A stretch of 64,000 bases of DNA, taken from positions 51,001-115,000 of the forward strand of contig CAJNDS010002753.1 in assembly GCA_905221605.1 (NCBI GenBank), written 5' to 3'. Below are positions 5,134 through 63,935 of the stretch, one piece after another; position 1 is the first letter of the stretch, and each line of letters begins with the position of its first letter. The notes beneath the pieces are model-generated. The model was not told the origin of the DNA, did no database searches, and saw only the letters and a list, made by a program, of their open reading frames with translations. A program made the position numbers and the translations under genes. This DNA comes from Symbiodinium natans (taxonomy: Eukaryota; Sar; Dinophyceae; Suessiales; Symbiodiniaceae).

Positions 5134-5260
5134 TCCCTAAACCCTAAACCCTAAACCCTAAACCCTAAACCCTAAACCCTAAACCCTAAACCCTAAACCC
5201 TAAACCCTAAACCCTTTAAGCCCTAAACCCTAAAGCCTTAAACCCTTTGAACCCTAAACC
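5134..5260 (+). repeat. C-strand telomeric array
   Basis: About eleven perfect CCCTAAA units followed by degenerate ones. A further short C-strand block (5450-5485) lies just before the exon at 5512. Confidence 0.95.
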
Positions 5261-5511
5261 AGGAGGGCCTCCTATACTAGCTTTCTTTAGTTAAGAGACT
5301 TGTGTCCGAAGTCAGGAGACTTATAGCACAATTTCGGGCCCTTAGAACACAGATTCATGGCCCCCCAGTGATCCCAATACCCCCCTAGTTAAGAAAATAT
5401 ACGTTAAACCAAACAGGGATCCCTGATCTGATTTGAGGCATATTATTCCTAAACTCCAAACCCCAAACCCTAAACCCTGAACCCCAGGAGGTATTTTTCT
5501 TTTGGGCAAAG

Positions 5512-5615
5512 GTCCGCGAGAGCTTTCGCTCTGCCGTGCAGCTGGATTCGAAGAAGCCCGACGCCTATGTCACTTTCGCCCAGCCACCGGGCAAGACTTA
5601 CTCCAGGCTCTATGG
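5512..5615 (+). CDS. Exon with TPR-like helix
   Basis: Acceptor GGGCAAAG, donor TATGG|GTTTAGGG made by the telomeric array that follows. The frame reads VRESFRSAVQLDSKKPDAY then VTFAQPPGKTYSRL. The pattern FxxAVxLDxxxPDAY is that of a TPR helix A/B boundary (inference). Flanks are C-strand before and G-strand after. GC content is clearly higher than in the surrounding sequence. Confidence 0.65.
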
Positions 5616-5676
5616 GTTTAGGGTTTAGGGTTTAGGTGTATCATTAGGGTTTAGGGTTTAGGGTTTAGGAGTTAGG
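5616..5676 (+). repeat. G-strand telomeric array starting at the splice donor
   Basis: The first GT of the array is the predicted donor of the exon ending at 5615. It is interrupted by GTGTATCA, then resumes. Confidence 0.9.
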
Positions 5677-6267
5677 GTATGTGCCCATATGGTCAATTCT
5701 CCAAATTATGCTCCCTTTCGGGGTTACCATTATCAGGCGACCTTAAATATTTAGGGTAATTACTCAGCAAGGGACCAGTATTTTGAGAACTGACTAGAAA
5801 ATTGTATCTATCTATAGGAACACCTTGAGGGCCCCATGGATTGCTTTGTCCAGACCTCACTTGGTTTTTGGTTACACAGGTTTAGAATCCTCACGTGGAG
5901 GGCATTTGTATTGTGCTCTTGGATCTTGTCTGATTCTCAGGCAGTCTCTCCTACAGTCGAGTGCTGAAACAAGCTTCCGTCAGCAGCACCTCAGGTCTAT
6001 GCTGACATGCAACCAGCTGGAGGCCAGCCAGATTTCGAGAATCCTTTTTTTGGGCGACCCGAAATAAACTATCATCAGGGACTATCCGACAGAAGCTGTG
6101 CAGAAACCCGGCGCCAGAAAAAAAGCCGCAGCCCTACACCCTAAAGCCTAAACCCTAAACCCTAAACAGGCAACGACACTACGAGTCGAGCCCAGAACGT
6201 GAGAAAACCGAAGTTGCAAGCCCCAATCCCTAAACGCTACACAAAGGCTCCAATGTAGTTCCTTTTG

Positions 6268-6347
6268 GGTTAGGGTTTAGGGTTTAGGGTTTAGGGTTTA
6301 GGGTTTAGGGTTTAGGGTTTAGGGTTTAGGGTTTAGGGTTTAGGGTT
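6268..6347 (+). repeat. G-strand telomeric array
   Basis: About eleven uninterrupted TTTAGGG units. Immediately upstream (6240-6268) is the 5' arm of a family C hairpin (CAAAGGCTCCAATGTAGTTC), cut by the array. Confidence 0.95.
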
Positions 6348-6734
6348 CAGCATCTCAAGTCCAAGCATTTCACTAGTAGAGCTCCTTACTCCGGTATCGA
6401 ATATCGACCCACCCACCCAGTGGATCCCATAACATTATGAAAATATTTTACTTTATGTTTTAATCTTCAAATTTTTGGTTCAGTCGGCTGCCGCCCAGGG
6501 TGGGCCCTAAACCCAAAAGGCAGCCCAGAGCAGGGCCTAACCTCAATAAAACCAGCCCCGCGTAGCCCCCGAGCCAGCCCAGAAGCCAGCCCAGACTAGG
6601 CCCTAAACCCTACAGCCAGCCCAGAGTAGGCCCTAAACCCTAAAGCCAGTACCGAATAGGCCCTAAACCCTAAAGCCTGCCCAGAGTAGGCCCTAAACCC
6701 TAAAGCCAGCCCAGAGTAGGCCCCCCGAGCAACC

Positions 6735-7705
6735 GGTAAATTTTGGTGGAAAACCGGGAAAACCGGGATTTGTGTAAAACCGGGAATGTTTAGTGGAAAA
6801 CCGGGAATTTTTAGTAGAAAAACCGGGAATTTTTGGTGGAAAACCGGGATTTTTTAGTAGAAAAACCGGGAGTTTTTGGTGGAAAAACCGGGAAGTTTTA
6901 GTGGAAAAACCCGGAATTTTTAGTGGAAAACCGGGATTTTTCGTGGAAAAACCGGGAATTTTTGGTGGAAAAACCTGGAAGTTTTAGTGGAAAAACCGGG
7001 AATTCTTAGTGGAAAACCGGGAATTTTTAGTGGAAAAACCGGGAGTTTTTTGTGGAAAACCGGGAATTTTTAGTGGAAAAACCGGGAGTTTTTGGTGGAA
7101 AAACCGGGAAGTTTTAGTGGAAAAACCTGGAATTTTTAGTGGAAAACCTGGATTTTTTAGTGGAAAAACCGGGAATTTTTGGTGGAAAACCGGGAGTTTT
7201 TAGTGGAAAAACCGGGAGTTTTTAGTGGAAAAACCGGGAAGTTTTTGGTTGAAAAACCTGGAATTTTTCGTGGAAAACCGGGATTTTTTGGTGGAACACC
7301 GGGATTGTGGAAAACCGGGAATTTTTAGTGGAAAACCGGGAATTTTTAGTGGAAAACCGGGAATTGTTGGTGGAAAACCGGGAATTTTTAGTGGAAAACC
7401 GGGAATTTTTAGTGGAAAACCGGGAATTTTTAGTGGAAAACCTGGAATTTTTAGTGGAAAACCGGGAATATTTAGTGGAAAAACCGGGAGTTTTGGTGGA
7501 AAAACCGGGAAGTTTTAGTGGAAAAACCGGGAATTTTTTGTGGAAAACCGGGAATTTTTGGTGGAAAAACCTGGATTTGTGGAAAACCGGTAATTTTTAG
7601 TGGAAAACCGGGAATTTTTAGTGGAAAACCGGGAATTTTTGGTGGAAAACCGGTAATTTTTAGTGGAAAACCGGTAATTTTTAGTGGAAAAACCGGGAAG
7701 CCATT
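6735..7705 (+). repeat. 22-bp minisatellite, about 45 copies
   Basis: Tandem units of roughly GGAAAACCGGGAATTTTTAG with spacing of 20-23 bp, variants GGTGG/AGTGG and GGGAGTT/GGGAATT. Several frames stay open across it and would encode monotonous NREFLVE- or KPGIFSG-type repeats. Those frames are by-products of unit length, not evidence of a gene. It sits between the exons at 5512 and 7993, so it is probably intronic. Confidence 0.95.
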
Positions 7706-7740
7706 AGCCATTAAATATACATAGGATAGAGAGTGTTTAG

Positions 7741-7873
7741 GGTTTAGGGGATTCTAGTATACTACCCCAAAAGGGTACGCTACCCAAAGGCTCCAGTGTA
7801 GTTCCTTTTTGGGTTTGCTATAGGGGATTCCAGTATACTGCCCCAAAAAGGGACTGCATAGCAGCCTTTGGGT
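7741..7873. mobile_element. Hairpin element, family C (with extra half copy)
   Basis: ACCCAAAGGCTCCAGTGTAG and CTGCATAGCAGCCTTTGGGTA form the arms, with TATAGGGGATTCCAGTATAC in the loop. A partial second copy (GATTCTAGTATACTACCCC) precedes it. Relatives are at 48578, 49050, 50350 and 61429. Confidence 0.8.
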
Positions 7874-7897
7874 AAAGTCCAAACAATGGTTAGGGGC

Positions 7898-7980
7898 ATT
7901 GGGGTTTAGGGTTTAGGGTTTGGGGTTTAGGGTTTAGGGTTTGGGGTTTAGGGTTTGGGGTTTGGGGTTTAGGGTTTTGG
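7898..7980 (+). repeat. G-strand telomeric array upstream of exon
   Basis: TTTAGGG and TTTGGGG units directly before the exon at 7993. This is an exception to the usual C-before-exon orientation. Confidence 0.9.
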
Positions 7981-7992
7981 GACACCCGCCAG

Positions 7993-8060
7993 GAGTCGAT
8001 AAGCGCATGGGAGGGGGCTTTGCAGAGGATCGACAAGGAGACTCTCGGCCACCACAAAGG
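7993..8060 (+). CDS. Exon with TPR-like helix
   Basis: Acceptor CACCCGCCAG, donor AAAGG|GTTTAGGG at the start of the next array. It reads ESISAWEGALQRIDKETLG then HHK. AWxxALxRxxxETLGHHxG fits a TPR helix A followed by the next turn (inference). G-strand arrays lie on both sides. Confidence 0.65.
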
Positions 8061-8165
8061 GTTTAGGGTTTAGGGTTAGGGTTTGGGGTTTAGGGTTTAG
8101 GGTGTAGGGTTTAGGGTTAAGGTTTTTGGGGTTTTCGGTGCAGGGCTTGAAGAGGGTTTAGGGTT

Positions 8166-8840
8166 TTTGGGCGGTGTAGGTTTGTCGGGGTTTCCGATGT
8201 CAACGTTCGAATTGGGTTGGTACGTATAAATGGAGGTCGCTTCTTTCCTGTTAAATTGCTGCTACTCGGGAATATGGGAAGCCCCCACCACAAGTACGAA
8301 GAATAAAGAAAGAAATGAAACTACTTGAGGAAATGATGAATTGGCGGTCACTTCGCATGCTGAAGTCATATTTGCTTGAGTGACCGGGAATGTTGGAAGA
8401 GAACAAAGGACAGCTACTAGGACAACGGATGCGCCAGCCAAAGTATCTTTTTTGATCGGGCTAGCATTTTAGTTTGTAATTCGGGCTAGAGGTGTGCCTT
8501 GATCTGAACAGCTATGAGAACAGACCTTGTAGGAGTATATCCTTAGGAGCTAGACCTTATTTCACCCCCCCCCCCCTCCTTCCCAACTTTAAATGCGAAA
8601 ACGTCAACCAAATGGTAGGTATACTTTGGAGGCCACTGTTCATTCCTAAACATCTACTACTTAATGAGGGTTGGAGTATTGGAAGCCCCTCCCCAAGTCG
8701 AAATGCAAATGGCTCGGATTATTTGGGATAAAAGGGTGTCACCAATCATTTCAAAGTTATTGCTTGAGTGACTGGGAATGTTGGACGAGAATGTAGGACA
8801 ACCGATGCCACAACATAATTGTTAGGGCTACTCTTAGAAT
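8166..8840 (+). repeat. Diverged tandem duplication in an array-free region
   Basis: GCTTGAGTGACCGGGAATGT at about 8375 recurs as GCTTGAGTGACTGGGAATGT at 8762, each followed by GAGAA..AGGACA. Upstream, GGAAGCCCCCACCACAAGTA (8278) matches GGAAGCCCCTCCCCAAGTCG (8678). This implies a roughly 390-bp unit present twice. No convincing gene is seen; small frames at 8492-8731 and 8819-9109 are not supported by splice sites. Confidence 0.6.
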
Positions 8841-9076
8841 CGTTTCTTTTGATAGGGCCAGTGACATTCCTTGAAATACAATTTCAACAGGAAGAACGTT
8901 TCCGTCTTGCGTGCTTAATCCATTGGCCCATCGGTCGTCCCAAGAGCCGTCCTTCACTCTCTTTCAACACCCCCTTAAACAAGTATATTTTTTTCAAGGA
9001 ACATAGCTGGCCTCACCATTATGTTTCTCAAGAGTCAGTAGAATCCCTTCCCCCTAATATTAAACGGGGGGAACCT

Positions 9077-9078
<2 letters not shown>

Positions 9079-9104
<26 letters not shown>
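9079..9104 (+). repeat. Poly-C tract
   Basis: About 25 consecutive C. Similar runs of 15-25 C or G occur near 831, 3012, 3334, 9427, 14207, 18125, 18267, 38540 and 46047. Confidence 0.95.
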
Positions 9105-9107
<3 letters not shown>

Positions 9108-9225
9108 AGAAACCGAAATGTGATTTTTTATTATAAGGAGATGTTTTATCCAAATGTCATGTTTTGGGTCTTGAGGGTCTAGGCTTCAGGGTTTGGAGGT
9201 TTAAGTACTTAATTAGGTGCAAACT

Positions 9226-9226
<1 letters not shown>

Positions 9227-9297
<71 letters not shown>

Positions 9298-9298
9298 G
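9227..9298 (+). repeat. (GA)n microsatellite
   Basis: A roughly 70-bp nearly pure GA dinucleotide run. Confidence 0.97.
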
Positions 9299-9518
9299 GA
9301 AGGGAGCTTCAGGATGTTGGTTGGTTTGAGGGTTTTGGGAGACCTCAACCCTCCCCCTAATTCGGAATAGGTTTTAAACTGTGGGGGGTGATTTCGGAAA
9401 GATGTTCAAGAACGTGTTTTACAATTAGGGGGGGGGGGGGGGGTATTTAAGACCATGGGGAAACGATTAACCAGTAAGCGTATACTTCTGTAAGTGCTGT
9501 TCTTGCAATACTGGAGAT

Positions 9519-9722
9519 TTGTGTTTGTTTAGCTTTAAAGGCAGTGCCTTTTTGTTGCATGCTGTTGCAGTGCATATCACTAGCCGCCTGAGTACAAAAA
9601 CACATTGCCTTCATCAAGTTGAGTTAACAGTTGATGAGCCTTTGATGTTCGTGATTGCAAGCTATGTATTTGAAACCTTGCAAACTAAGCATGTGTTTAT
9701 CCAAGCGACTCGTCTAAATTGA
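9519..9722 (+). CDS. Weak ORF in array-free region
   Basis: A 67-codon frame with mixed composition (for example SAFLLHAVAVHITSRLSTKT). The reverse strand (9662-9880) is also partly open. No telomeric arrays or clear splice sites surround it. It could be part of an unrecognised inserted element. Confidence 0.25.
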   Translation: MCLFSFKGSAFLLHAVAVHITSRLSTKTHCLHQVELTVDEPLMFVIASYVFETLQTKHVFIQATRLN

Positions 9723-9955
9723 CAACAACCAATAATATTTACTTTGGCTTCATGAGCCGAACTTGCAAAGTAACACTCATGATTTTGCGATCTTAGCCTA
9801 GTCCAAGCTCGTCTTCGCGAATTGAGTGCCAGAAGCAAGCGCCGAGGTCGTCGCTCTACATCTGTATTACATGAGCGCACCTGTTTAAACAGCCATTGGG
9901 TTCAAACACGCGTTCGAAATCACAAAAGGTAGGCGCATGAGGGGGGGGGGGGGTA

Positions 9956-10072
9956 GCATATATATATATATATATACATGTATATATATATATATATCTA
10001 TACATATATGTATGGGTCATATATATATATATATGTATGGGTCATATATATATATATATATGTCTATAGACA
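9956..10072 (+). repeat. (TA)n microsatellite with internal repeats
   Basis: TATA runs broken by three ATGTATGGGTCATATATA-type units. Confidence 0.95.
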
Positions 10073-10404
10073 TATTTGAGGAACATGAGACGTCGTAACA
10101 GTGGAGTTATCATACCTCAAACGGAACCCTACTTGAGCTTCTCCTGCTTAGTAGCTAGCTCTCACCTGATTCCTGCTTATTCAGTCACCGACCCTCGAAA
10201 CATTCCCTAAGCACACGCCTCAGTCCTATTTTCCCTCCCTATATCCCGAAAAGCCATAAAGCCTACATTCCCTGATCTCCTTGCATACCCCTCAAAGAAA
10301 CCCCTTTGCTGTGCTCTGCCGCCTTTCAACCCTCCCCCCCCCCCCCCTTTATCCCTAAATTCCCTGAACTCCTTAAAGTCCTTAAGTTCGCTATGTTCCT
10401 TCTA

Positions 10405-10503
10405 AACCCTAAACCCTAAACCCTAAACCCTAAACCCTAAACCCTAAACCCTAAACCCTAAACCCTAAACCCTAAACCCTAAACCCTAAACCCTAAACCC
10501 TAG
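10405..10503 (+). repeat. C-strand telomeric array
   Basis: About 14 near-perfect CCCTAAA units, marking the right border of the array-free stretch 8.2-10.4 kb and preceding the exon candidate at 10524. Confidence 0.95.
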
Positions 10504-10523
10504 GACCGAGCCCGATCTTGCAG

Positions 10524-10580
10524 CCTGGGCGGCCGGGAGGCTTCGATGGGCGAAGTGCCTGTGCCCGACCACCCATGCCC
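10524..10580 (+). CDS. Candidate exon
   Basis: Follows GATCTTGCAG after a long C-strand array. Two frames are open: LGGREASMGEVPVPDHPCP and GRPGGFDGRSACARPPMP. The donor is not clear. Confidence 0.4.
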
Positions 10581-10985
10581 CTTAAACCCACAGAGCCCAA
10601 TAACCCTAAATTGAGGGTTAGGGTTTGGGGTTTAGGGTTTAGGGTTTAGGGTTTAAGGTTTAGGGTTTAACCCACAGAGCCCAGGAATATACCTGTTGGG
10701 GCCCAGAGAGAAAGGCTACAGATTCCATACACTCGGAACGTACAAAGAGGGGCCTTGTAGTTACAAGTAGAGTTACACGGGCCTTGAAATTGGGTTCTAA
10801 GTATTCAAACTTAGGTCATAAGTCCCTGAACTATTGTTGGTATACAAAGAGGGCCTTTTGTTTTTGGGAGTTCGGATTTGCCTGGGTTGAGGGCGTAGCT
10901 GCTTAGCTTGCCTGGAGAGCTTCAAAGTCCTGGACCTCGGCCAAACGAGAAGTCTACTGGAGCAGCCCTAAACCTCACCTCCCTT

Positions 10986-11140
10986 CTCAGGGTGGCTACA
11001 TGGTCCCCCAATTTTGGCCCTTAATTGGGGAACACGTAGATACCCCTCATATACCCTATAAAACCCCAAATGCCATACACACTTCAGAACGCTTGAAAGA
11101 AGGTAAGGGGCCATATGATCCCTCCGGCCCGGATGACCCA
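10986..11140. mobile_element. Hairpin element, family M (diverged)
   Basis: Begins GGGTGGCTACATGGTCCCCC and ends AAGGGGCCATATGATCCCTC. Related to the better preserved copies at 21187, 35745 and 37516. The frame 11000-11263 runs through it; its last part (RDQAGSVLFGLERVPYPACA) may be a real exon read through from the hairpin. Confidence 0.5.
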
Positions 11141-11291
11141 ACAAGGTATGGTATGGTTTCAATGGAGCGCGACCAGGCAGGATCGGTTCTGTTTGGGCTC
11201 GAAAGAGTTCCGTATCCTGCTTGTGCCGTGTGCCGCAAGTTCATGTTGCTTTCGTTATGGTAGGTGTGCGACCGCAAGACCTCATTGGCAG

Positions 11292-11322
11292 GCTGCCCAA
11301 AACGTGTGGGCCGTCAGGCAAG
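11292..11322 (+). CDS. Short exon candidate
   Basis: CATTGGCAG before and CAAG|GC after; reads AAQNVWAVRQ. Plausible composition and an AG / GC pair, but only 31 bp. Confidence 0.35.
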
Positions 11323-11902
11323 GCTCGAAACCCTTAAAGGTGTAAAGTGTGCCAGCCCCGAACCTGAGAATGAGAATTGGCAAACCCTCAGCTGTCAAAA
11401 AATGTGTGTATCGCATCGCTGACCCCAAGCTCGGGTGGCTAATGCCATGGCCATACCGAAGAGCTGCTGGTAGGAGCTTGGGGGCCTCTGCGTTCAAGTT
11501 TACTTAGGGTTTAGGGTTTAGGGTTTAGGGTTCAGGGTTCAGGGTTTAGGGGGTTTAGGGTTTAGGGTAGCGCCAGAATCCCCCTGAACCCCGATTCCAC
11601 GATCCTGATTCTTGGAACCCAGCACTCCTCCCTGATGCAGGGAGCCCGAAACCCTCAACCCTAATTTGGGGACCAGGGTTTTTTAGGGTTTGGGTTTACA
11701 TTTTGACCCTCGAGATGGACTCTGATCTACCCAGACCCCTGGGAGGATCCAAAAAGCAGAACCCCAAACTTGTACCCTAATGCTACTCTTGGGTCATTCT
11801 TAAAAAGCCCTTAGGGGGGATCTACTTCTTGGAGAAGTCTGGGCCCTAAACCCTAAACCCTAAACCCTAAACTTTAAACCCTAAACCCTAAACCCTGGGC
11901 AG

Positions 11903-11972
11903 GTTTATGCTGGTGGGCAGGGCGACCTGCAGGCCTCCCTCAAGCTCATCGAGAAGCAGCTCGAGACCTGTC
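11903..11972 (+). CDS. Exon bounded by telomeric splice sites
   Basis: The preceding C-strand array ends AAACCCTGGGCAG and the exon ends CTGTC|GTTTAGGG, so the donor GT is the first dinucleotide of the G-strand array. It reads VYAGGQGDLQASLKL then IEKQLETC, an amphipathic helix. Family unknown. This is one of the cleanest examples of C-array, exon, G-array order. Confidence 0.75.
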
Positions 11973-12060
11973 GTTTAGGGTTTAGGGTTCAGGGTTTAGG
12001 GGTTTCGGGTTTCGGGTTTAGGGTTCAGGGTTTAGGGTTTCGGGTTCAGGGTTCAGGGTT
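11973..12060 (+). repeat. G-strand telomeric array (degenerate)
   Basis: TTTAGGG with TTCAGGG and TTTCGGG variants, starting exactly at the predicted donor. Confidence 0.9.
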
Positions 12061-12344
12061 ATGCCTCGACCCAGACGCCTGGGAGGATGCAAAAAGTAGA
12101 TCCCTTCGAGGGTTCCTGAGAAATGTCCGAATCGTTGGGGGTCTACTTGTTGGGGTTTGTGGGGAGGGAACTGGAGAGCCACAGGTACACATGCAATGGG
12201 CACCAGATGTTGGGGTGTTTGTTGTTTCTTGTTTTCCTTTTCTCTTTTTGCCCCCCCAAACCCTAAAACCCTAACAATGCCCTAAACTCTGAAACCATAA
12301 ACCCTGAAAATCCTTAAGTCTGTCATCTTCCCCTCGTGCCAAAG

Positions 12345-12386
12345 TTTTGAACCCTGGTCATCAATCCTTGCGCGGATGTTTGAAAG
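12345..12386 (+). CDS. Short exon candidate
   Basis: GTGCCAAAG before, TTGAAAG|GTGGGG after. Two frames are open: FEPWSSILARMFE and LNPGHQSLRGCLK. Supported only by the splice-like ends. Confidence 0.3.
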
Positions 12387-12847
12387 GTGGGGTTCGTCCA
12401 CATACAGCAATGGTTTCCTTAAGTCCCTCGTGCTACAAGGGGTTAGGGGTTTCAGGTTTAGGGTCTAGAGTTGAGGGTTTAACTGTAGTAGGGCCCTTAT
12501 ACCGCGTCATGGACGGCGAATCCACCGTCAACCCCACAGGCCCAAGCCCCAAACCCGAGAAGCTAAAGTCTCAACCCCAAGACATTTTAACCCTTCTAAC
12601 CCTGCAAACCTGTAAACCCTAAACCCCCACAGCCCCAACCGCTAAACTCGAGAAGTAAAGTCTCAACCCCAAGACATCCTAACTGCCCCTTCTAACCACG
12701 TAACCCTGTAAACCTTAAACCCTACTTGTAGGTAGTTACCGAGGAAGGGCGATTAAGGACGCTAACCCCAACTAAAGTCCCAAAAGTATCTTATCCCATA
12801 ACTCCACGTTGTGTTCCTACTTATTAAGTTGCCCGATCCTGAGAACC

Positions 12848-14370: not shown

Positions 14371-14401
14371 TAGGCACACAGATGCTCACAGCTGAAGGGA
14401 T

Positions 14402-14535: not shown

Positions 14536-14539
14536 CCGC

Positions 14540-56371: not shown

Positions 56372-56421
56372 GCGTCCTCCACCGCGCCAGACGATGCTTT
56401 GGAGCCTTACCCAGTTCCCAG
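56372..56421 (+). CDS. Exon
   Basis: GGCCAGCCTAG before, GTTCCCAG|GC after; reads ASSTAPDDALEPYPVP. A G-strand fragment follows. Confidence 0.6.
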
Positions 56422-56557
56422 GCAACAGCTTAGGGTTTAGGGTTTTTAGTTTCGGGATTTGTTGGGACGTGCCTTTGGCCTCGTGGGCTTGGGGGCCTAA
56501 ACCCTAAACCCTAAATCCTAATCCCTATGCCCTAAACCCTACACCGCACCCTCTAAG

Positions 56558-56636
56558 CCATCGGGAAGATACGATTGGGTAAAGTCTGCCGGGCCACGAG
56601 CTCCAAGCACAATGAGATTGTTCATGGTGCCCTTAA
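56558..56636 (+). CDS. Exon
   Basis: CACCCTCTAAG before, GTTCATG|GTGCCC after. It reads IGKIRLGKVCRATSSKHNEI then VH. C-strand units before, G-strand after (56639-56665). Family unknown. Confidence 0.68.
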
Positions 56637-56670
56637 GGCTTAGGGTTTAGGGTCTAGGGCTTAGGGCAAG

Positions 56671-56712
56671 GCTAATGTCTGTGAAGGGACGCTTTTCACG
56701 CCGATCCTCACC
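56671..56712 (+). CDS. Short exon abutting a W hairpin
   Basis: TTAGGGCAAG before; reads ANVCEGTLFTPILT, then the W hairpin arm CTAAGGATCC. Confidence 0.48.
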
Positions 56713-56844
56713 CTAAGGATCCATGTAACCTATATATATATCTATATATATATATATAGTATATACTTGGGCCCCCTAAAGCTACTACTTAGGAACCCCC
56801 TTTACGCCCAAGTATATACTATATAGGTACATGGATCCTTTGGT
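56711..56844. mobile_element. Hairpin element, family W, with TA microsatellite
   Basis: CCTAAGGATCCATGTAACCT to TAGGTACATGGATCCTTTGG; AGTATATACTTGGGCCCC and GCCCAAGTATATACTATA inside. The TA-rich arm has expanded (56731-56762). Confidence 0.9.
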
Positions 56845-56852
56845 TAGTATAG

Positions 56853-56911
56853 GCGCCACACAAGACCACACTACGGCCACTGAAGAGAGCGCCTCTCGAC
56901 ACAGTACTTAG
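56853..56911 (+). CDS. Exon candidate after the W hairpin
   Basis: TTAGTATAG before; reads ATQDHTTATEESASRHST and TAG. It may be the C-terminal continuation of 56671-56712. Confidence 0.5.
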
Positions 56912-57008
56912 TAGTAGAGTAGGTAACCTGCAACCTTGTGGGGTTACTCTTATCCCTATCAAATCCCAAAGGTTAACCTTTAATTCCCCAAGGTTACTGG
57001 ACGACTAG

Positions 57009-57090
57009 GAGTGCCCGTAGCACTGTGCACAGCTGCGCTTGCCCAGGTTCGCTCCATGCTGCTGGCGCCCAAAGAAGGCACTCACTGTAG
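57009..57090 (+). CDS. Exon candidate
   Basis: CTGGACGACTAG before; reads VPVALCTAALAQVRSMLLAP then KEGTHC. Hydrophobic then polar. The donor is not clear. Confidence 0.52.
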
Positions 57091-57129
57091 TACATGTTCC
57101 TAATCAGGAGAGGCCCAATCCATTGAATA

Positions 57130-57196
57130 CATGTGTATATATACGTATATAGACATATATATATATAGATATATATATATATACATAAATATACAA
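57130..57196 (+). repeat. (TA)n microsatellite
   Basis: TATA-rich tract. 57200-57850 holds AT-rich sequence, G-strand fragments (57500-57625) and no clear exon. Confidence 0.94.
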
Positions 57197-57850
57197 TGCA
57201 TATGATCGCGGTTCGCGGTTCGCCGCTCCCCCCCCCCTCCCTCCCCTAAACAAATAAAACCTAAACCTTAAACCCTAAACCTCAAACTACATATTTGTAT
57301 GTACATGATCATGGCCCCATACATTTTATCTACCCAATACTTCATATACTTCAGTATCTATTCTTCAGTATCTATTTTAAACTATGTATTGATTTTTGTC
57401 TTTCAATTTTTGTATACATCCCTAAGGGTAGGGACTTCAGGGTTCAAGGTGGGACGTTTGCATTGAGCTTCTGCGCATCCTCGACTTCTAACTGCGTCAA
57501 TGTTGTTAAGGGTTTGGGGTTTAGAATTTAGGGTCGAGGGTTTTGGGTTAAGGGCTTAGGATTTAGGGCTAAGGGTTTAGGGTTTAGGGTTTCCAGGTTT
57601 AGGGCTTATGGTGTAGGGCTCAGGGTTGAGGTGCGGCGGTGGTGGTTATGGCGGCTCAGTGGCAAGAGTCGGCGTAGTGAGTAGAAGTGGGAGCATCAGC
57701 AGGCTTGGTCAGGTTGTCAAAGTCCTACACCCCTGAGCCCCAAACCCTCACAACCCCAGACCCTAAAACCCCAAACCCTCAAGCCTCTGAACCCAAAACC
57801 CCTGAGCCCCTAAATCCAAAACACAAAACCCTAAAGCCCAAGCCCTCCAG

Positions 57851-57946
57851 GCGCTGCGCGGCTGGACCTTCCTTTGTTGGCGCTGGCGCGAGCGCTGCGC
57901 CGCCAGCGGTTCCCCGAGCTAACGGAGGCCATTCAGCTGAGGGCTT
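57851..57946 (+). CDS. Exon, helical
   Basis: AGCCCTCCAG before, AGGGCTT|GTAGGG after, a donor in telomere-like sequence. It reads AARLDLPLLALARALRRQRF then PELTEAIQLRA. It leaves one T, completed by the two-base start at 58047. Confidence 0.7.
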
Positions 57947-58046
57947 GTAGGGTTTAGGGTTTAGGTTTTTAGGGTGTAGCGTTTAGGGATGTAGGGTTTA
58001 GGGTTTAGGGTTGCGGGGCTTAGGGCTTATAAGGTTTGGGGTTCAG

Positions 58047-58118
58047 CCAAAGCCTTCAAGCCACCTTCCTTGCGAGTGCGCCCTGGGTCTGGCGCGTGGA
58101 GTTTTTGCGTTTGTCGAG
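58047..58118 (+). CDS. Exon
   Basis: GGGGTTCAG before, TTTGTCGAG|GTTAAC after; reads KAFKPPSLRVRPGSGAWSFC. In phase with 57851-57946. Confidence 0.55.
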
Positions 58119-58413
58119 GTTAACCCCTAGACCCTAAACCCTAAAACCCTATGCCCTAAAGCCCTAAATCGTCAGGGTAAAGGGTTGAGGGTTGAGGTTC
58201 AAGGGTTTGGGCTTATCGAGGTCCCAAGCCCAACAACCTGAGCACACACTGAATTCTTGTGGGTTTCCGGGTACGGGCAGTCCCATTGGTCCAGGGCCTA
58301 GGGCTTATAGCATTTTTCGGGGTGTAGGGTTTGGGGTTTGGGGTTTGGGGTTGAGGGTAAGGTTTGATACATTTGTAGGGTTTACGGGGTTCATAGGGCT
58401 CATATTCAGCTAG

Positions 58414-58516
58414 GACGAAAGTTCGACCCACGACCCAGAGGCATCGGCACACAGGCAAGCATGGCAAGGGCAAGCCCCCATCCCCCTCAGACTCCTCGCC
58501 CACCAGGACTCCACCT
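58414..58516 (+). CDS. Exon, basic/proline-rich
   Basis: ATTCAGCTAG before, CTCCACCT|GTTAAA after. Two frames are good: TKVRPTTQRHRHTGKHGKGK with PPSPSDSSPTRTPP, in phase with 59095; and RKFDPRPRGIGTQASMARAS, in phase with 58047. Confidence 0.58.
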
Positions 58517-58660
58517 GTTAAAATAGCAATCCATTGTTGTTGCGGTGGGTTAATTTCTCCGCTACGCAGGCTAGGTTAAATCCTCATGTGCGCGACTCCG
58601 CGACTCCGCAACGTGTTAAGGTCTTGGTGGGTCGAAACTTTTGTCCTGTCCATGTAGGGT

Positions 58661-58757
58661 TTAGAGGGTGTATAGCCACACTTGGGCACTTAAGGGATTG
58701 CAAGTGGGTGAAAAACACAGCTGTAATTGGGCGAATAAGTACCATGAACCTCCAAGT
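58661..58757. mobile_element. Hairpin element, family T (3' part)
   Basis: GGGCACTTAAGGGATTGCAA to AAGTACCATGAACCTCCAAG. A 5' half (TACTTGGAGGTTCATGGGTA) lies at 58893-58962. Confidence 0.8.
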
Positions 58758-58967
58758 AAGGTTCATAGGGCTCATAGGGCTCAGGGTTTAGGGTTTAGGG
58801 CTTTATAGGCACGTCTCCACAAAGCCGTTGGTCCGTAGAAAAGGAGCTCTAGCCGCTCTAGCCCCCTCGGCCCTAACAAAACCCTGACAAAGCCTACTTG
58901 GAGGTTCATGGGTACTTAGAAGTAGGGCTATAAGTACGGCTATCGATCTAGGGTACTTCTAACCCTA

Positions 58968-59070
58968 CACCCTAACCCCTAACCCCTAACCCCTAACCCC
59001 TAACCCCTAACCCCTAAACCCTAAACCCTAAACCCTAAACCCTAAACCCTAAACCCTAAACCCTAAACCC
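58968..59070 (+). repeat. C-strand array, CCCCTAA then CCCTAAA
   Basis: About seven CCCCTAA units switch abruptly to nine CCCTAAA units. Confidence 0.95.
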
Positions 59071-59094
59071 AAAAGCCTCGCTCTGCCTCCTCAG

Positions 59095-59178
59095 TCCTGT
59101 CCCGGTGCCGCCGCCCTGGTTTTGGTGCGAGAGTCGTTGAAAGCTGCGCTGGAAGAGGCGCGGCCTCAGTTCCCCTAA
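59095..59178 (+). CDS. Exon, probable C-terminus
   Basis: GCCTCCTCAG before. It reads SCPGAAALVLVRESLKAALE then EARPQFP and TAA at 59176; the stop lies in the CCTAAGGG start of a W hairpin. 27 codons plus stop in phase with 58414-58516 (first frame). C-array before it. Confidence 0.72.
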   Translation, partial: SCPGAAALVLVRESLKAALEEARPQFP

Positions 59179-59363
59179 GGGTCTATGTGCCTTACTATTA
59201 TGCACTTGGGCCCCCAAAATAGGGTTTAGGGTTTAGGGTTCAGGGGTTTGGGGTTTAGGGTTGAGGGTTTAGGGTTGAGGGTTTAGGGTTTAGGGCGAAT
59301 CCTTATTTCGGAGGTACTTTGCGGCCCAAGTATACCCCATTTAGGTACATGGACGCTCAGGGT
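59174..59363. mobile_element. Hairpin element, family W, with telomeric array in the loop
   Basis: The 5' half is CCTAAGGGTCTATGTGCCTT with ACTTGGGCCCCC; the 3' half is CGGCCCAAGTATACCCC with TAGGTACATGGACGC. Between them lies an 80-bp G-strand array (59217-59297), absent from other W copies. Confidence 0.85.
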
Positions 59364-59569
59364 TCAGAGGTAAGAGAGCTCAGCGCAGGGCTTAGGGAGA
59401 AGGGGGCCGGGGGGGGGGGGGGTATCCAGGTTGTACAGGATAAGAGAGGTCAGGGCTTGCAGTAGTGGGGTGGGGGGTTTATACAGGTTAAAAGACCCTA
59501 AAACCCTAAACCCTAAACCCTAAACCCTAAAGGTTTGCCTTAGTATTGGAGGTTAGGGTTTAGGGTAGG

Positions 59570-59640
59570 TAGCCCCAGTGGTAGCCTGTGACCAAGTGGC
59601 CCCGACTCATGGACCAAGGAAGCGCCTTAGGCCCTTTTTG
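59570..59640. mobile_element. Family G hairpin fragment
   Basis: GGTAGCCCCAGTGGTAGCCT opens like family G; the rest is diverged. The frame 59643-59849 downstream (for example SLRLPKKLGPLKRVGCED) is a weak coding candidate. Confidence 0.5.
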
Positions 59641-59874
59641 GGGTGTGGTTTAGGGTTTGGGGCTTAGGGTTTAGGATTAGGGTTTTGGGGTTTGGGTTTA
59701 GGGGTTTAGAAGTAACCATCCGAAGTAACCATCCCCCCACAAGGGCTCAAATATGGTCACTGCGGCTGCCAAAAAAATTAGGGCCTTTGAAAAGGGTGGG
59801 ATGTGAGGACTGCAAGGCCAACTGCCCAATGAGACCCTATCAACCTTAACAGGCCCTGTGAAAGGGTGGGCTTA

Positions 59875-60085
59875 GGCTTTAGGGTTTTGGGTTTAGGGCT
59901 TAGGGTTTAGGGTTTAGGGCTTAGGGTTTAGGGTTTAGGGTTTAGGGCTTAGGGTTTAGGGTTTAGGGATTAGGGTTTAGGGTTTAGGGTTTAGGGTTTA
60001 GGGTTTAGGGCTTAGGGCTTAGGGCTTAGGGTTTAGGTTAGGGTTTAGGGCTTGGGGCTTAGGGCTTAGGGTTTAGGGTTTCGCG
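59875..60085 (+). repeat. G-strand telomeric tract with CTTAGGG units
   Basis: About 28 units, mixing TTTAGGG and CTTAGGG. Confidence 0.95.
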
Positions 60086-60151
60086 TGCAAGGCCCAGTGT
60101 GCCCGTGCTGGTTTCGCCTGGCTGTGATAGGCCTTGCTGCATCTCCGCCAG

Positions 60152-60223
60152 GATCTGCAGGCCATGTCCGCCAATGTCGCGGACTCGCAGAAGCTGGCGC
60201 CCACCTACTGGCAACTTGCCTGA
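60152..60223 (+). CDS. C-terminal exon
   Basis: CATCTCCGCCAG before. It reads DLQAMSANVADSQKLAPTYW then QLA and TGA at 60221. A good polypyrimidine-like acceptor. Family unknown. Confidence 0.72.
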   Translation, partial: DLQAMSANVADSQKLAPTYWQLA

Positions 60224-60526
60224 AAAGGTTTACCTTCAGGGTTTAGGGTTTAATTAGGGTTTAGGGTTCCCTAAAGCCTAAACCCTAAATCCTAAGCCCT
60301 AAACCTAAACCCTAAACCCTGAGCCCTAAACCCTAAACCCTGAACCCCAAAACCAGACCACTCGGTCCTCTCAAAGTGTAGTTCGTTGTGGGTTGGGCGC
60401 TGTCTCCGAGCTGAACACCCCGCTGGCCGTGTGTCCCTTCAGCAGCCGGAAAGTATAGGTGCCAACTCTTACCCAAAAACCTAAAGCCCTAAAACCTAAA
60501 CCCTCTATCCTATACCCTACCCTACT

Positions 60527-60583
60527 TGGACGTTCATGGGCGCTTTCCACCTACTTAGAGGACTTAGGGGGCTGATAAGTACA
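60527..60583. mobile_element. Hairpin element, family T (reduced)
   Basis: CTACTTGGACGTTCATGGGC with GAGGACTTAGGGGGCTGATA; the closing arm is replaced by C-strand units. Confidence 0.65.
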
Positions 60584-60674
60584 GCTCTAAACCCTAAACC
60601 CCAATAAGCCCTAAACCCTAAACCCTAAACCCTAAGCCCTAAACCCTAAACCCCTCCCAACCCCATTGGTCCAG

Positions 60675-60749
60675 GAAGGCGCTCTGTGGGCCTGGGCCCG
60701 CGCCCGGGCCGGCTGGGGAGGCGCCCGAGGGCTCCCGGCGCCCGGGCGT
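60675..60749 (+). CDS. Very GC-rich exon candidate
   Basis: TTGGTCCAG before, GGGCGT|GTTTGG after. Frames EGALWAWARARAGWGGARG and RRSVGLGPRPGRLGRRPR are both open. C-strand before, G-strand after. Confidence 0.5.
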
Positions 60750-61123
60750 GTTTGGTTTAGGCTTTAGGGTTTAGGGTTGAGGGTTGAGGGTTGAGGGTTT
60801 AGGGTTTAGGGTTTAGGGTTTAGGTTTCTGCCAGGTGCTGAAAAGCAGAGGCTCTCTTATACAAGGACCTTATTCAGAGGGTCTACATCCCCAAGGGTCC
60901 CCCTAATCCTATCCCCTACCCTTAGAAAGGCCCTGTTTTAGGGTTGATTATATGGGGATTATAGGGTCTGATAGCCCATCCTGGCCTAACCCTCAATCCC
61001 GCCTAGACCCCCCAAGCACCCTTTCTTAAGGGGTACTTGGGGCTGGGGTGCAGGACGTCACACTCATTTTGTGAAAGGGCAGTGTTGCTTTACGGGTTTT
61101 AGATGCCCTGAACCCTTTTCTTT

Positions 61124-61237
61124 TCCCTCCCTCTCTCTCTCTCTCGCTCTCTCTCTGTCTCTCGCGCTCTCTCTCTTTCTCTCTACTCTCTCTCTCTCTC
61201 TCGCTCTCTCCCTCTCTCTCTCTCTCTCTCTTCCTCT
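61124..61237 (+). repeat. (TC)n microsatellite
   Basis: CT runs with CGCTC and CTGTC interruptions. The R/E-rich - strand frames are artefacts. Confidence 0.95.
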
Positions 61238-61322
61238 CCCAGCCCACTGAAGGGTTAGAACCCTAGACCCCAAAACCCTACAGAGCCAAGACACCCCCAA
61301 ATTCTTCCTTGCCAGCTCCAAG

Positions 61323-61428
61323 GAATCCGGACTTCGCCCCCGAAAACCTCAACCTGGAGAACCGGCCTCCGGCGGAAGTAGACTCGGACCCGCTGCCACC
61401 ACCAGAGACGCTCGGCAACAGACCCTGG
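61323..61428 (+). CDS. Exon 1 of a phase-matched run near the right end
   Basis: GCCAGCTCCAAG before, AGACCCTGG|GTTAGT after. It reads NPDFAPENLNLENRPPAEVD then SDPLPPPETLGNRPW. Acidic and proline-rich, unmistakably protein-like. A family C 3' half begins at the donor. Ends in phase 0, matching 61967. Confidence 0.83.
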
Positions 61429-61493
61429 GTTAGTTACAGGGGATTCTAGTATACTACCCCAAAAAGGTACTACATAGGAGCCTTTGGGTAAAC
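61429..61493. mobile_element. Hairpin element, family C (3' half) at a donor
   Basis: GTTAGTTACAGGGGATTCTA to CATAGGAGCCTTTGGGTAAA. Its first GT is the predicted donor, like the loop start GTTAGTTGTAGGGG of the copy at 49082. Confidence 0.82.
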
Positions 61494-61732
61494 TCTAAGT
61501 CCCTGCACCCCTACCCTGAACCCGACACCCTCAACCTCTGCGCCACAATCACCTCGAAACACCCTGCACCACCTCTGGGTAGGCCCTTGGGGTATCCTAT
61601 ATATATGTTCCCTGATTGGGTTTAAAAAGACTATATATATATATACATACATATTTAGGAATCTTTTTCAGAGGGTTTTAAGGACCGTCCGAGACCCTTG
61701 ACCCTGCTTTTACGCGTGCCTGGTCACTTCCT

Positions 61733-61797
61733 AGGGTTTAGGGTTTAGGGTTTAGGGTTTAGGGTTTAGGGTTTAGGGTTTAGGGTTTAAAGTTTAG
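61733..61797 (+). repeat. G-strand telomeric array
   Basis: Nine units, inside the intron 61429-61966. Confidence 0.95.
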
Positions 61798-61966
61798 GGG
61801 CAACCAAGGCGGGCCCTGGAACTACTGAGGGTGGCACTGCGAGGTCTCTGAGAGCTCTGGGACACATTGAGGGGTTTGGGGGGGGCTGGAAATTTAGGCC
61901 TTTAATAGGGTTTTTCGGGTTTAGGGTTTTGGGGTTTGGGGTTTGTGGTTGAGGCTTTGGGGCCAG

Positions 61967-62484: not shown

Positions 62485-62591
62485 GTAGCCCAGTGGTACC
62501 GTTTTCCCTTTGTTTGGTCCAAGGTTCCTCTAGAAAGTAGTCAGCCCAAAAAAGGGTGCCCCTATTATAATATGGTTGCTGGGCTACTAAG
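62484..62591. mobile_element. Complete hairpin introner, family G, with 7-bp target duplication
   Basis: A 108-bp element from GGTAGCCCAGTGGTACCGTT to TATGGTTGCTGGGCTACTAAG. CCAACTG lies on both sides (62477-62483 and 62592-62598). GT is at element bases 2-3 and AG is its last two bases, so the element is an intron on arrival. The reading frame is open before and after. Confidence 0.92.
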
Positions 62592-62650
62592 CCAACTGCA
62601 GTATTGCACAGCCCGAACTCCCCAAGTCTTCTGAACCAACCCAACACCCT
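62592..62650 (+). CDS. Exon 4 of the run, after the introner
   Basis: Starts at the second CCAACTG copy. With GT-AG removal of the element it reads PTAVLHSPNSPSLLNQPNTL in phase 0. The 3' end is unclear and runs into C-strand-like units at 62645. Confidence 0.58.
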
Positions 62651-62709
62651 AGACCCTCAACCCTCAACCCTGCAGCCTAAATCTTGAAAAAACTTCGTCT
62701 CCCTACCAG

Positions 62710-62802
62710 CCGCAGTTTTTGAGCATCCGAGCATCATGGCTGCGGAAAGCAAAGTACGCAAGCGGCAAACAGGTGGACCAGCTGATCTTGCTTCTAACTC
62801 AG
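62710..62802 (+). CDS. Exon abutting an S hairpin
   Basis: CTCCCTACCAG before. It reads PQFLSIRASWLRKAKYASGK then QVDQLILLLTQ. The S hairpin (AGAGAGCCC) starts at its 3' end. There is no GT at this boundary; CTCAGA|GAGCCC would be a GA donor. Strong helical composition. Confidence 0.78.
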
Positions 62803-62895
62803 AGAGCCCAGTACCCTCAATTCAGGAATATACTTTATAGGGATCCTTAATCTGATTTAAGGCATATTCCTTGGTGAAGGGGTATTGGGCTCTGT
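62800..62895. mobile_element. Hairpin element, family S, at an exon end
   Basis: CAGAGAGCCCAGTACCCTCA to TGAAGGGGTATTGGGCTCTG. Also at an exon end at 33667 (CTCAGAGAGCCCAATATCC), suggesting a preferred CTCAG context. Confidence 0.85.
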
Positions 62896-63051
62896 CGTTC
62901 AGGATTCAAGGTGTAGGATTCAGGGTTTAGGGTCTGGCTTTGTGGCCCTATACCCAGGTCCCCCGATAGCCGAGTATGTTGAGGGTTAGAACCCTTGCAC
63001 TTTGTACCAGGTAAAGCCCTTCCAGCTAAAGCCCTTCGTAGACACATCACA

Positions 63052-63768
63052 AACCCTAAATACCCTAGACGCCGCGGAAAACCCGAAACCCCTAAACCCT
63101 AAAATGCCCTAAAATATACAAAAACCCGAAAACCCTAAAACCCCAAAACCCTAAAACCCTAAATCCCTAAAGCCCTGAAACCCTAAAACCCTAAAACCCT
63201 AAGACCCTAAGACCCTAAATCCCTAAACCCGAAAAGCCTAAAACCCTAAAGGTTCTAAGACCCTAAAATCCTGCGACCCTGAGACCCTAAAAACCCTAAG
63301 ACCCTAAAACCCTAAAACCCCAAAACCGTAAAACCCTTAATCCCTAAAGCCCTGAAACCCTAAAACCCTAAGACCCTAAACCCTAAGATATTAAAACCCC
63401 AAAACCTAAAACCTCAAAACCCTAAGACCCTAAAGCCCTAAAACCCTAACACCCTAAAAGCCTAAAGCCCTAAAATCAACCCCTGAACCCCTAAACCGTA
63501 AGACCCTAAGACCCTAAACCCCCAAACCCTAAAATGCTCTAGAATACCCAAAACCCTAAGACCCTAAGACCCTCAACCCTAAAGCCCTAAAACCCCAACA
63601 CCCTAAAGCCCTAAAGCCCCAAAACCCTGAAGCCCTAAAACCCTAAGACCCTAAACCCTAAACCCCTAAAGCCCTAAAGCCCCAAAACCCTGAAGCCCCA
63701 AAACCCTAAGACCCTAAGACCCTAAGACCCTAAACCCTAAACCCGAAGACCCTAAACCCCGAGGCAAG
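63052..63768 (+). repeat. C-strand tract of CCCTAAAA and CCCTAAGA octamers
   Basis: About 700 bp of degenerate 7-8 bp units (CCCTAAAA, CCCTAAGA, CCCCAAAA, AAAGCCCT). The longest degenerate telomere-like tract here. It ends with GAGGCAAG, the acceptor of the last exon. Confidence 0.95.
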
Positions 63769-63860
63769 AACGAGGAGCCCGCTGAGCCGGCGCCCGGCAA
63801 TGTTTGGCAGATCGGCCGCTTCCGCGTGAACTTGGGTCGGATCCCAGAGCCTGGATTGCC
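63769..63860 (+). CDS. Last exon in the window
   Basis: CCGAGGCAAG before, GGATTGCC|GTTAAC after. It reads NEEPAEPAPGNVWQIGRFRV then NLGRIPEPGL. C-strand tract before, G-strand array after (63878-63914). Family unknown; the gene probably continues past the window. Confidence 0.78.
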
Positions 63861-63935
63861 GTTAACCCAAAGAGCCGGGTTTAGGGTTTAGGGTTTAGGG
63901 TTTAGGGTTTAGGGATGGGGTTCTGGCTCAGCTTA

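Follow-up and report, generated by a model that had tools for sequence, protein, structure and literature searches.

Telomere-type arrays and the two genes of the window

The stretch of DNA analysed here, a 64-kb window of the Symbiodinium natans genome, holds two predicted glycosyltransferase genes (Table 1). Between and beside their exons lie tandem arrays of TTTAGGG, the telomere unit reported for dinoflagellates other than S. natans (PMC11453091). With a cut-off of at least 18 nt, we counted 234 TTTAGGG-type arrays, of which 124 (7,133 nt) carry the G strand and 110 (7,101 nt) the C strand. Together they make up 22% of the window and also 22% of the length of the introns mapped in the two genes, and as tandem telomere-type units inside a chromosome they are candidate interstitial telomeric sequences.

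Exon ends were defined, independently of the arrays, from the S. natans predicted proteins P0001 and P0004, which follow the window exon by exon, with the caveat that the peptides that led to these proteins were taken largely from islands between arrays. Gene 1, with a partial first exon and approximate outer ends, contributed 26 introns, the intron near 23747-24425 being excluded as uncertain. Gene 2, whose exons form a single open frame once spliced, contributed 18. Among the resulting 44 introns, 35 come from the S. natans proteins and 9 were placed by hand via homologues; 43 bear arrays. Their donors are GC in 32 cases, GT in 7 and GA in 5, and the consensus is weak beyond the second base.

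Most of the 12 exon starts listed in the original prediction are exons in this map, and nine coincide exactly with a mapped acceptor (5512, 11903, 13104, 18314, 19043, 22111, 23665, 29777 and 57851). The other three did not hold up in the same way: 24416 is 10 nt off the mapped 24426, which itself rests on a doubtful part of the P0001 model, and neither 44814 nor 63769 is backed by the proteins used. Among the exceptions it had named, 7993 does begin an exon and is preceded by a G array, the protein-based map has no exon at 16076 or 21803, and 44851-45021 lies outside both mapped genes.

Arrays beside exons are strand-polarised in both genes

The telomeric arrays beside exons are strand-polarised, mostly with the C strand before and the G strand after the exon, which confirms in two genes the central claim of the original prediction. 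Where an array lies within 60 nt of a donor, the nearest is G-strand in 23 of 25 cases and C-strand in 2; for acceptors, at the same distance, the nearest is C-strand in 25 of 29 and G-strand in 4. The pooled favoured sense is thus found in 48 of 54 (p=2.5e-8). The bias is present when each gene is tested separately (p=6e-6 and 3e-4), in the 35 introns from S. natans proteins only (39/44, p=1.4e-7), and under an exact-repeat definition of arrays (39/44). These figures cover two plus-strand genes in one 64-kb window, with introns mapped from proteins. Since arrays are polarised around exons, introns tend to open with the G strand and close with the C strand, and this second claim, too, stands as a tendency.

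Rotating the arrays inside introns (circular-shift null, 3,000 rotations) gave 14.0 +- 3.1 favoured proximal arrays as against the 48 seen, a 3.4-fold excess, and wrong-sense proximal arrays were depleted (6 seen versus 13.9 expected, p=0.004). Deeper in the introns, among 95 arrays lying over 100 nt from either end, polarity was absent (p=0.20), and the G and C homopolymer runs of whole introns had none.

Placement is also tied to the splice sites. The favoured donor-side G arrays start 16-26 nt inside the intron in 14 of 23 cases, the favoured acceptor-side C arrays end within 30 nt of the 3´ splice site in 21 of 25, and at 14 of 44 donors an array lies no more than 20 nt away, compared with 7.6% of interior points. 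G-array coverage after donors is about 40% at +25 to +80, 7-9% at +160 to +220 and 8-18% deeper, while C-array coverage before acceptors is about 50% at -30 to -60 and about 12% from -140. Favoured proximal arrays have median lengths of 76 and 80 nt, versus 35 nt for other intron arrays; wrong-sense proximal arrays are also long (n=8, median 69.5 nt), so array length tracks place, not sense. The spacers from splice site to array are mutually dissimilar by eye.

No array lies within 80 nt of 17 of the 44 donors and 12 of the 44 acceptors, and at 16 of 41 internal exons a C array precedes and a G array follows, each no further than 60 nt away. Exon-holding islands of 60-160 nt are C-G in 19 cases and G-G in 5; those of 160-400 nt are C-G in 7 of 11, and those above 400 nt in 1 of 11.

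Table 1. Genes, splice-proximal arrays and exceptions (positions in the window; offsets in nt, + inside the intron from its donor, - before its acceptor)
Feature	Coordinates	Strand	Remark
Gene 1, predicted GT61 glycosyltransferase, TPR-like N-terminal part	3061..31588	+	28 exons mapped
Gene 2, predicted GT2-like glycosyltransferase	46110..61850	+	19 exons mapped, outer ends approximate
G-strand array	5614..5678	+	+31, donor 5583
G-strand array	8058..8148	+	+18, donor 8040
G-strand array	10611..10669	+	+56, donor 10555
G-strand array	11973..12060	+	+10, donor 11963
G-strand array	13195..13270	+	+16, donor 13179
G-strand array	19119..19259	+	+6, donor 19113
G-strand array	22177..22278	+	+25, donor 22152
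G-strand array	24468..24491	+	+4, donor 24464
G-strand array	28773..28808	+	+20, donor 28753
G-strand array	29878..29964	+	+44, donor 29834
G-strand array, variant GGGCTTTA unit	30927..31076	+	+18, donor 30909
G-strand array	46709..46821	+	+49, donor 46660
G-strand array	49440..49499	+	+25, donor 49415
G-strand array	49871..49917	+	+3, donor 49868
G-strand array	51599..51671	+	+18, donor 51581
G-strand array	52455..52480	+	+21, donor 52434
G-strand array	53408..53621	+	+17, donor 53391
G-strand array	54505..54589	+	+26, donor 54479
G-strand array	56121..56218	+	+38, donor 56083
G-strand array	56430..56459	+	+16, donor 56414
G-strand array	57948..58029	+	+20, donor 57928
G-strand array	60235..60252	+	+24, donor 60211
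G-strand array	60754..60827	+	+16, donor 60738
C-strand array	5448..5484	-	-27, acceptor 5511
C-strand array	10402..10502	-	-1, acceptor 10503
C-strand array	11844..11896	-	-6, acceptor 11902
C-strand array	12844..13100	-	-3, acceptor 13103
C-strand array	15558..15748	-	-28, acceptor 15776
C-strand array	18242..18267	-	-46, acceptor 18313
C-strand array	18979..19031	-	-11, acceptor 19042
C-strand array	20706..20772	-	-10, acceptor 20782
C-strand array	22015..22094	-	-16, acceptor 22110
C-strand array	23563..23653	-	-11, acceptor 23664
C-strand array	25889..25934	-	-24, acceptor 25958
C-strand array	26966..27042	-	-19, acceptor 27061
C-strand array	29667..29774	-	-2, acceptor 29776
C-strand array	30687..30806	-	-26, acceptor 30832
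C-strand array	46543..46590	-	-24, acceptor 46614
C-strand array	48299..48484	-	-1, acceptor 48485
C-strand array	49310..49327	-	-18, acceptor 49345
C-strand array	52278..52358	-	-30, acceptor 52388
C-strand array	53228..53317	-	-19, acceptor 53336
C-strand array	54294..54392	-	-33, acceptor 54425
C-strand array	55960..55982	-	-52, acceptor 56034
C-strand array	57724..57846	-	-4, acceptor 57850
C-strand array	58961..59078	-	-16, acceptor 59094
C-strand array	60605..60653	-	-21, acceptor 60674
C-strand array	61259..61280	-	-42, acceptor 61322
Exception: C-strand array	46190..46240	-	+20, donor 46170
Exception: C-strand array	52136..52206	-	+40, donor 52096
Exception: G-strand array	7899..7981	+	-11, acceptor 7992
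Exception: G-strand array	18475..18530	+	-14, acceptor 18544; 72 nt from donor
Exception: G-strand array	51408..51504	+	-18, acceptor 51522
Exception: G-strand array	61732..61799	+	-9, acceptor 61808

Arrays occur independently at the two intron ends

The original prediction proposed that the arrays act as inverted repeats at intron termini, whose pairing could bring the splice sites together. Whether as such repeats or as introner transposons, this now seems very unlikely. The tendency of introns to open with G and close with C does agree with it, and dinoflagellate introners with 8-20 nt inverted repeats at both ends have been described (PMC7789003, PMC10666404). However, a donor G array and an acceptor C array occur in the same intron independently (both in 12, G only in 11, C only in 13, neither in 8; odds ratio 0.67, p=0.56), and the lengths of arrays at the two ends show no significant correlation (rho 0.32, n=12). 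Eight of the 43 array-bearing introns hold a single array (7 G, 1 C), which in seven has the sense expected for the nearer end, 4 to 56 nt away, with no partner in the intron; in the eighth (18403-18544, 142 nt), a lone G array 14 nt before the acceptor runs opposite to the rule. Partners are nearer across exons, where the closest complementary array of a donor-side G array lies in 17 of 23 cases, and the loops would span 76-138 nt (median 102) across 16 exons versus 352-2253 nt (median 820) across 12 introns.

After masking of the arrays, intron-specific terminal complementarity within 30 nt was found in 0 of 44 introns. Without masking, introner-type inverted repeats within 30 nt of the intron ends numbered 4 of 44, as against 3.3 from mismatched intron ends. 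Identical runs of at least 4 nt at the junctions, the mark of target-site duplications, numbered 14 of 44 versus 12.8 expected from mismatched pairs. An introner element like those of Amoebophrya and Prorocentrum, with 8-20 nt inverted repeats and target-site duplication, was rejected for these 44 introns.

Possible alternatives: exon hairpins, telomerase healing and negative selection

The same distances would suit a hairpin of RNA or DNA centred on the exon, in which the C array preceding the exon pairs with the G array following it and the exon is looped; such a loop would aid exon definition or yield circular or skipped exons. Two exon-centred segments, modelled without G-quadruplexes, are predicted to fold into strong hairpins that loop the exon (-109.5 and -125.1 kcal/mol, z -8.7 and -6.4). 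The arrays flanking the same exon lean to co-occur, and the coupling at 60 nt (odds ratio 3.7, p=0.06) and 100 nt (4.3, p=0.05) speaks for pairing, whereas that at 40 nt (2.5, p=0.21) does not. We nevertheless find exon-centred hairpins doubtful, given that no more than 16 of 41 internal exons are flanked on both sides within 60 nt and that the two arrays around an exon do not correlate in length (rho 0.06, n=16). An exon that is looped out usually has lower inclusion, which also speaks against them.

The main alternative, possible but on the whole rather unlikely, is a biased origin without function, in which intron breaks would have been trimmed towards an exon as far as the loss is tolerated, healed by telomerase and rejoined. 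Telomerase extends 3´ ends with the G strand, so a healed end points away from its own exon, C before and G after, and the polarity on both sides follows from the enzyme's chemistry. Healing would fit the enrichment and greater length of arrays at exon borders in either sense, the independence of the two intron ends, the absence of extra G-run conservation and the leaning towards co-occurrence on both exon sides. It is less at ease with direct G-to-C fusions, which are not in excess (2 of the 10 array pairs less than 10 nt apart; C then G in 3). Moreover, one break healed from one end would leave either sense near the exon, and insertion alone does not predict the depletion of wrong-sense arrays (6 versus 13.9).

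That depletion is what pure negative selection would give, if arrays landed anywhere and those that make cryptic splice sites near exons were lost; the 23 donor-proximal G arrays average 9 GT and 8.6 AGG each. Yet such loss cannot yield the 3.4-fold right-sense excess (48 versus 14), and as the whole explanation it is extremely improbable.

A possible local role in splicing

In these two genes the arrays are enriched at splice sites, in a characteristic position and orientation and independently at the two intron ends, and their orientation around exons suggests a link of telomere-type repeats with splicing. We tentatively infer, as the best of the readings though at somewhat less than even odds, that each array is anchored to its own splice site, separately from the other intron end, and is retained for a local effect in the pre-mRNA or because it is tolerated there, perhaps as an auxiliary splicing signal. 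The favoured excess, the agreement of both genes, the wrong-sense depletion, the unpolarised interior, the uncoupled ends and the single-array introns all argue for local anchoring.

In this proposal, a coding-strand (TTTAGGG)n array shortly after the 5´ splice site could act as a G-run or RNA G-quadruplex enhancer beside weak-consensus donors, for which outside help would be useful given the weakness past the second base. A (CCCTAAA)n array close to the 3´ end of the intron could form a tract beside the AG acceptor, its perfect unit being free of AG and GU, and its CUAAAC steps might offer branch-point or C-rich binding sites. Selection would remove opposite-sense arrays, since every unit of a G-strand array ahead of an acceptor presents an AG-G decoy; these units are not always used, as four true acceptors 9-18 nt downstream of a G array show.

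With 23 of 25 donor-proximal arrays on the G strand, RNA-sense G-runs are enriched just inside the 5´ splice site, as expected of a splice-proximal G-run or G4 enhancer. Extra conservation of GGG near donors was not found (0.92, 0.95 and 0.88, versus 0.93, 0.95 and 0.96 in interior G arrays), and a G array within 60 nt occurs independently of donor type (17/32 GC, 3/7 GT, 3/5 GA). Array-free donors and acceptors (17 and 12 sites) are not rich in G- or C-runs relative to intron interiors (p=0.28 and 0.94), so arrays are not required.

A stronger and unlikely version would make the arrays an exon-definition code read in pre-mRNA, standing in for the weak splice consensus and maintained by recurrent telomerase healing or slippage. 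A G-strand G-quadruplex after the exon and a C-strand tract before it would carry the code, perhaps bound by telomere-repeat proteins. If functional, such cheap repeats, set beside splice sites in a given sense and at a given distance, would amount to an exon mark that can be tested; if they merely came about through break repair, the arrays would record telomerase healing inside genes. Under either reading, introner scans for inverted repeats at intron ends should mask telomeric arrays first.

Relation to known systems

Inverted repeats flanking exons, such as Alu pairs, can drive exon circularisation. The S. natans genes likewise have complementary repeats on both sides of exons, about 100 nt apart; here the repeats are telomere units, and in the two genes they flank 16 of 41 internal exons.

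Introners described in Amoebophrya, Prorocentrum and S. microadriaticum come from the same dinoflagellate lineage, and they resemble the S. natans introns in that some have complementary sequences close to their two ends and in their non-canonical donors (PMC7789003, PMC10666404, PMC9860276). Unlike introners, the S. natans introns have no intron-specific inverted repeats or duplicated targets after array masking, and their arrays often stand at a single intron end.

Animal splice-proximal G4 and G-run enhancers also place RNA-sense G-runs inside the 5´ splice site, more so at weak sites; in the mouse and human data reported, the enrichment of G4 motifs at 5´ splice sites is 5.56-fold for the non-template strand and 2.38-fold for the template strand (PMC9065059). 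At 3´ splice sites the same report has G4 slightly commoner on the non-template strand, opposite to the C sense seen here, and the donor-side G runs of S. natans, unlike what is expected of such enhancers, are no more conserved than those of other arrays.

Like interstitial telomeric sequences, the S. natans arrays are tandem copies of a telomere-type unit away from chromosome ends. Splice-site phasing and exon polarity, which are not among the features that the literature at hand describes for such sequences, are both present in these genes. In three Karenia species, interstitial telomere signals were reported as rare by FISH (PMC6395649), whereas in S. natans arrays constitute 22% of the mapped introns.

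Array sense at splice sites

Telomeric arrays are strand-polarized around exons, as the original prediction held. In 44 introns mapped from protein models, the nearest array within 60 nt had the favored sense (TTTAGGG, or G-strand, just inside the donor and CCCTAAA, or C-strand, just before the acceptor) at 48 of 54 splice sites. G arrays were nearest at 23 of 25 such donors and C arrays at 25 of 29 acceptors, leaving 2 donors and 4 acceptors, or 6/54 sites, where the rule was broken. This result covers two genes on one contig, with introns taken from protein models rather than RNA reads.

Both genes were mapped with S. natans proteins, which also provide the species assignment of the window and are gene predictions in public records, not sequenced transcripts. 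The unnamed protein P0001 (gene 1) was retrieved with peptides of putative exons in the first half of the window and P0004 (gene 2) with such peptides from the second half, the queries being mostly chosen from array-flanked islands, the stretches between arrays. When the proteins were threaded through the window, with the junction search limited to GT, GC and GA donors and AG acceptors, 18 of 18 P0001 and 17 of 17 P0004 block junctions had zero protein mismatches. A prior donor-free search had solved 15 of 18 attempted P0001 steps, all 15 with GT, GC or GA donors; the other three reflected wrong anchors or a missed microexon. Homologues guided the manual placement of nine extra introns, of which eight lie late in gene 1 and one is at the beginning of gene 2. 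Donors in the full set are GC (32), GT (7) and GA (5), and the base after the acceptor AG is G in 42/44 introns. The fifth intron base is C in 22/44 donors, and the eighth is G in 24/44 (p=1e-4 relative to a G frequency of 27%; 11 positions were inspected).

Once spliced, the gene 2 exons form a single open frame. Gene 1 is not displayed in this way because one doubtful intron was kept unspliced. The P0001 model ends via this intron and appears to lack or misread an exon there; since the S. microadriaticum homologue P0002 disagrees with P0001 at this point, the intron was excluded from all counts. By Pfam, a GT61 domain in P0002 and a GT2 domain in P0004 were over the cut-off, and TPR matches in P0001 were under it. 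P0001 and P0004 are each listed on a 292,166-bp contig, and their S. microadriaticum relatives P0002 and P0005 each on a 156,152-bp contig; thus, the gene pair seems to be conserved.

Features located in the window
Position	Feature	Observation
3061..31588 (+)	gene 1	GT61 glycosyltransferase
46110..61850 (+)	gene 2	GT2-like glycosyltransferase
6757-7699	minisatellite	0.94 kb, 21/43-bp units (GGAAAACCGGGAATTTTTAGT), within a single gene 1 intron
23747-24425	doubtful GT-AG intron	in P0001 model, without support from P0002; would contribute a favored G array at +41 and a favored C array at -41
30927-31076	array beside donor	variant 8-nt unit GGGCTTTA, favored sense
44814-44850	exon-like island	C array before, G array after, no protein match
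~49501-49629	MITE-like hairpin, intronic	ends GGTTCATGGTACTT...AAGTACCATGAACC, similar ends at several other places; 14-mer from ends, 7 copies in window
~62800-62895	example of second short family	ends AGAGCCCAATACCC / GGGTATTGGGCTCT; 14-mer 7 times
63769-63852	exon-like island	C array before, G array after, no protein match

By hidden Markov segmentation, the window carries 234 arrays of 18 nt or longer, split almost evenly between the two senses. Arrays cover 22.2% of the mapped introns, as of the window, and overlap none of the mapped exons. They crowd against splice sites, starting within 30 nt of 19/44 donors and ending within 30 nt of 25/44 acceptors, in comparison with 11.4% of interior non-array points that have an array within 30 nt. 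Rotation of arrays within their introns predicted 14 favored and 14 disfavored proximal arrays, as opposed to the 48 and 6 observed; therefore, both the favored-sense excess and the wrong-sense shortage need explaining. Proximal arrays are also about twice the length of other intron arrays (76 and 80 nt for the favored sense and 69.5 nt for the wrong sense, versus 35 nt). Scans of the window with Rfam (gathering threshold) and for tRNAs gave no matches, and a viral-contig scan for the telomeric repeat, examined for repeat counts only, gave 17 loci.

The polarity is robust to the choice of distance (favored sense in 39/44 at 30 nt, 51/59 at 100 nt and 54/68 at 200 nt), and persists in each gene taken singly, in the 35 introns from S. 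natans proteins only, and under an exact-repeat definition of arrays. A relative-position score over all arrays was positive in 37 introns and negative in 6, and 0 of 100,000 per-intron sign flips matched the observed score. Among the 95 arrays located beyond 100 nt of both intron ends, there was no polarity (p=0.20), so the polarity is local to splice sites rather than a property of the whole intron. Introns accordingly tend to open with G arrays and close with C arrays.

Before the exon map, which superseded this test, 35/74 islands of 80-160 nt had a C array before and a G array after (C-G). Exon-free islands of 60-160 nt within the genes have no C-G excess (7 C-G, 10 G-C, 12 G-G, 6 C-C; n=35). 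Outside the genes, 13/31 islands of this size are C-G (9 G-C, 5 C-C, 4 G-G), a lean that weakens the claim that the pattern belongs to exons only; these C-G islands are perhaps unmapped exons. The two exon-like islands in the table may belong to the 5´ region of gene 2 and to a third gene. Because reverse complementation leaves the pattern unchanged, these two plus-strand genes cannot separate transcription-linked from exon-linked sense.

Several other sources of the arrays or their polarity were considered. Telomere fusion scars are not the main source, since 10 neighboring array pairs less than 10 nt apart included 2 G-to-C and 3 C-to-G junctions. An introner or terminal-inverted-repeat origin was rejected, and avoidance of decoy splice sites is disfavored as the sole cause. 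General polarity of G and C runs was likewise rejected: runs of at least 7 nt numbered 6 versus 6 for G and 18 versus 13 for C in the first versus second intron half. Eight of these runs lie 120 nt or less from a splice site; seven have the favored direction, and all seven come from four introns.

Pairing across introns or exons

It had been proposed that the arrays fold to bridge the intron ends, and this was not supported: obligatory pairing would couple the two ends of an intron, which are uncoupled (odds ratio 0.67, p=0.56). Arrays flanking one exon lean toward co-occurrence, with odds ratios of 2.5, 3.7 and 4.3 at 40, 60 and 100 nt (p=0.21, 0.06 and 0.05). Complementary arrays are separated by about 102 nt over an exon versus 820 nt over an intron, and two exon-centered segments, folded by energy only and without G-quadruplexes, gave hairpins enclosing the exon. 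Together, these observations make the intron bridge a less likely pairing than an exon-spanning one. Array lengths were not significantly correlated across exons or introns.

Possible roles of the arrays

We tentatively favor the possibility that the arrays serve as local auxiliary splicing signals, because this would fit their position, their sense, the independence of the two intron ends, and the weak donors. Three observations count against such an effect on splicing: GGG near donors has no added conservation, array-free splice sites have no compensating G or C runs, and four acceptors lie closely downstream of a G array. Telomerase healing of breaks trimmed to exon borders would generate the observed sense without any function, yet leaves the wrong-sense depletion unexplained and the fusion scars missing; we consider this origin less likely.

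Among the matches listed, the titles and abstract openings of open-access papers do not report telomeric arrays phased to splice sites. The S. natans genome paper (PMC8045281) nowhere uses the stem "telomer" in its main text, nor does the stem appear in PMC9087856, PMC11114475 or PMC10666404. GC and GA donors are known in Symbiodiniaceae (PMC11453091).
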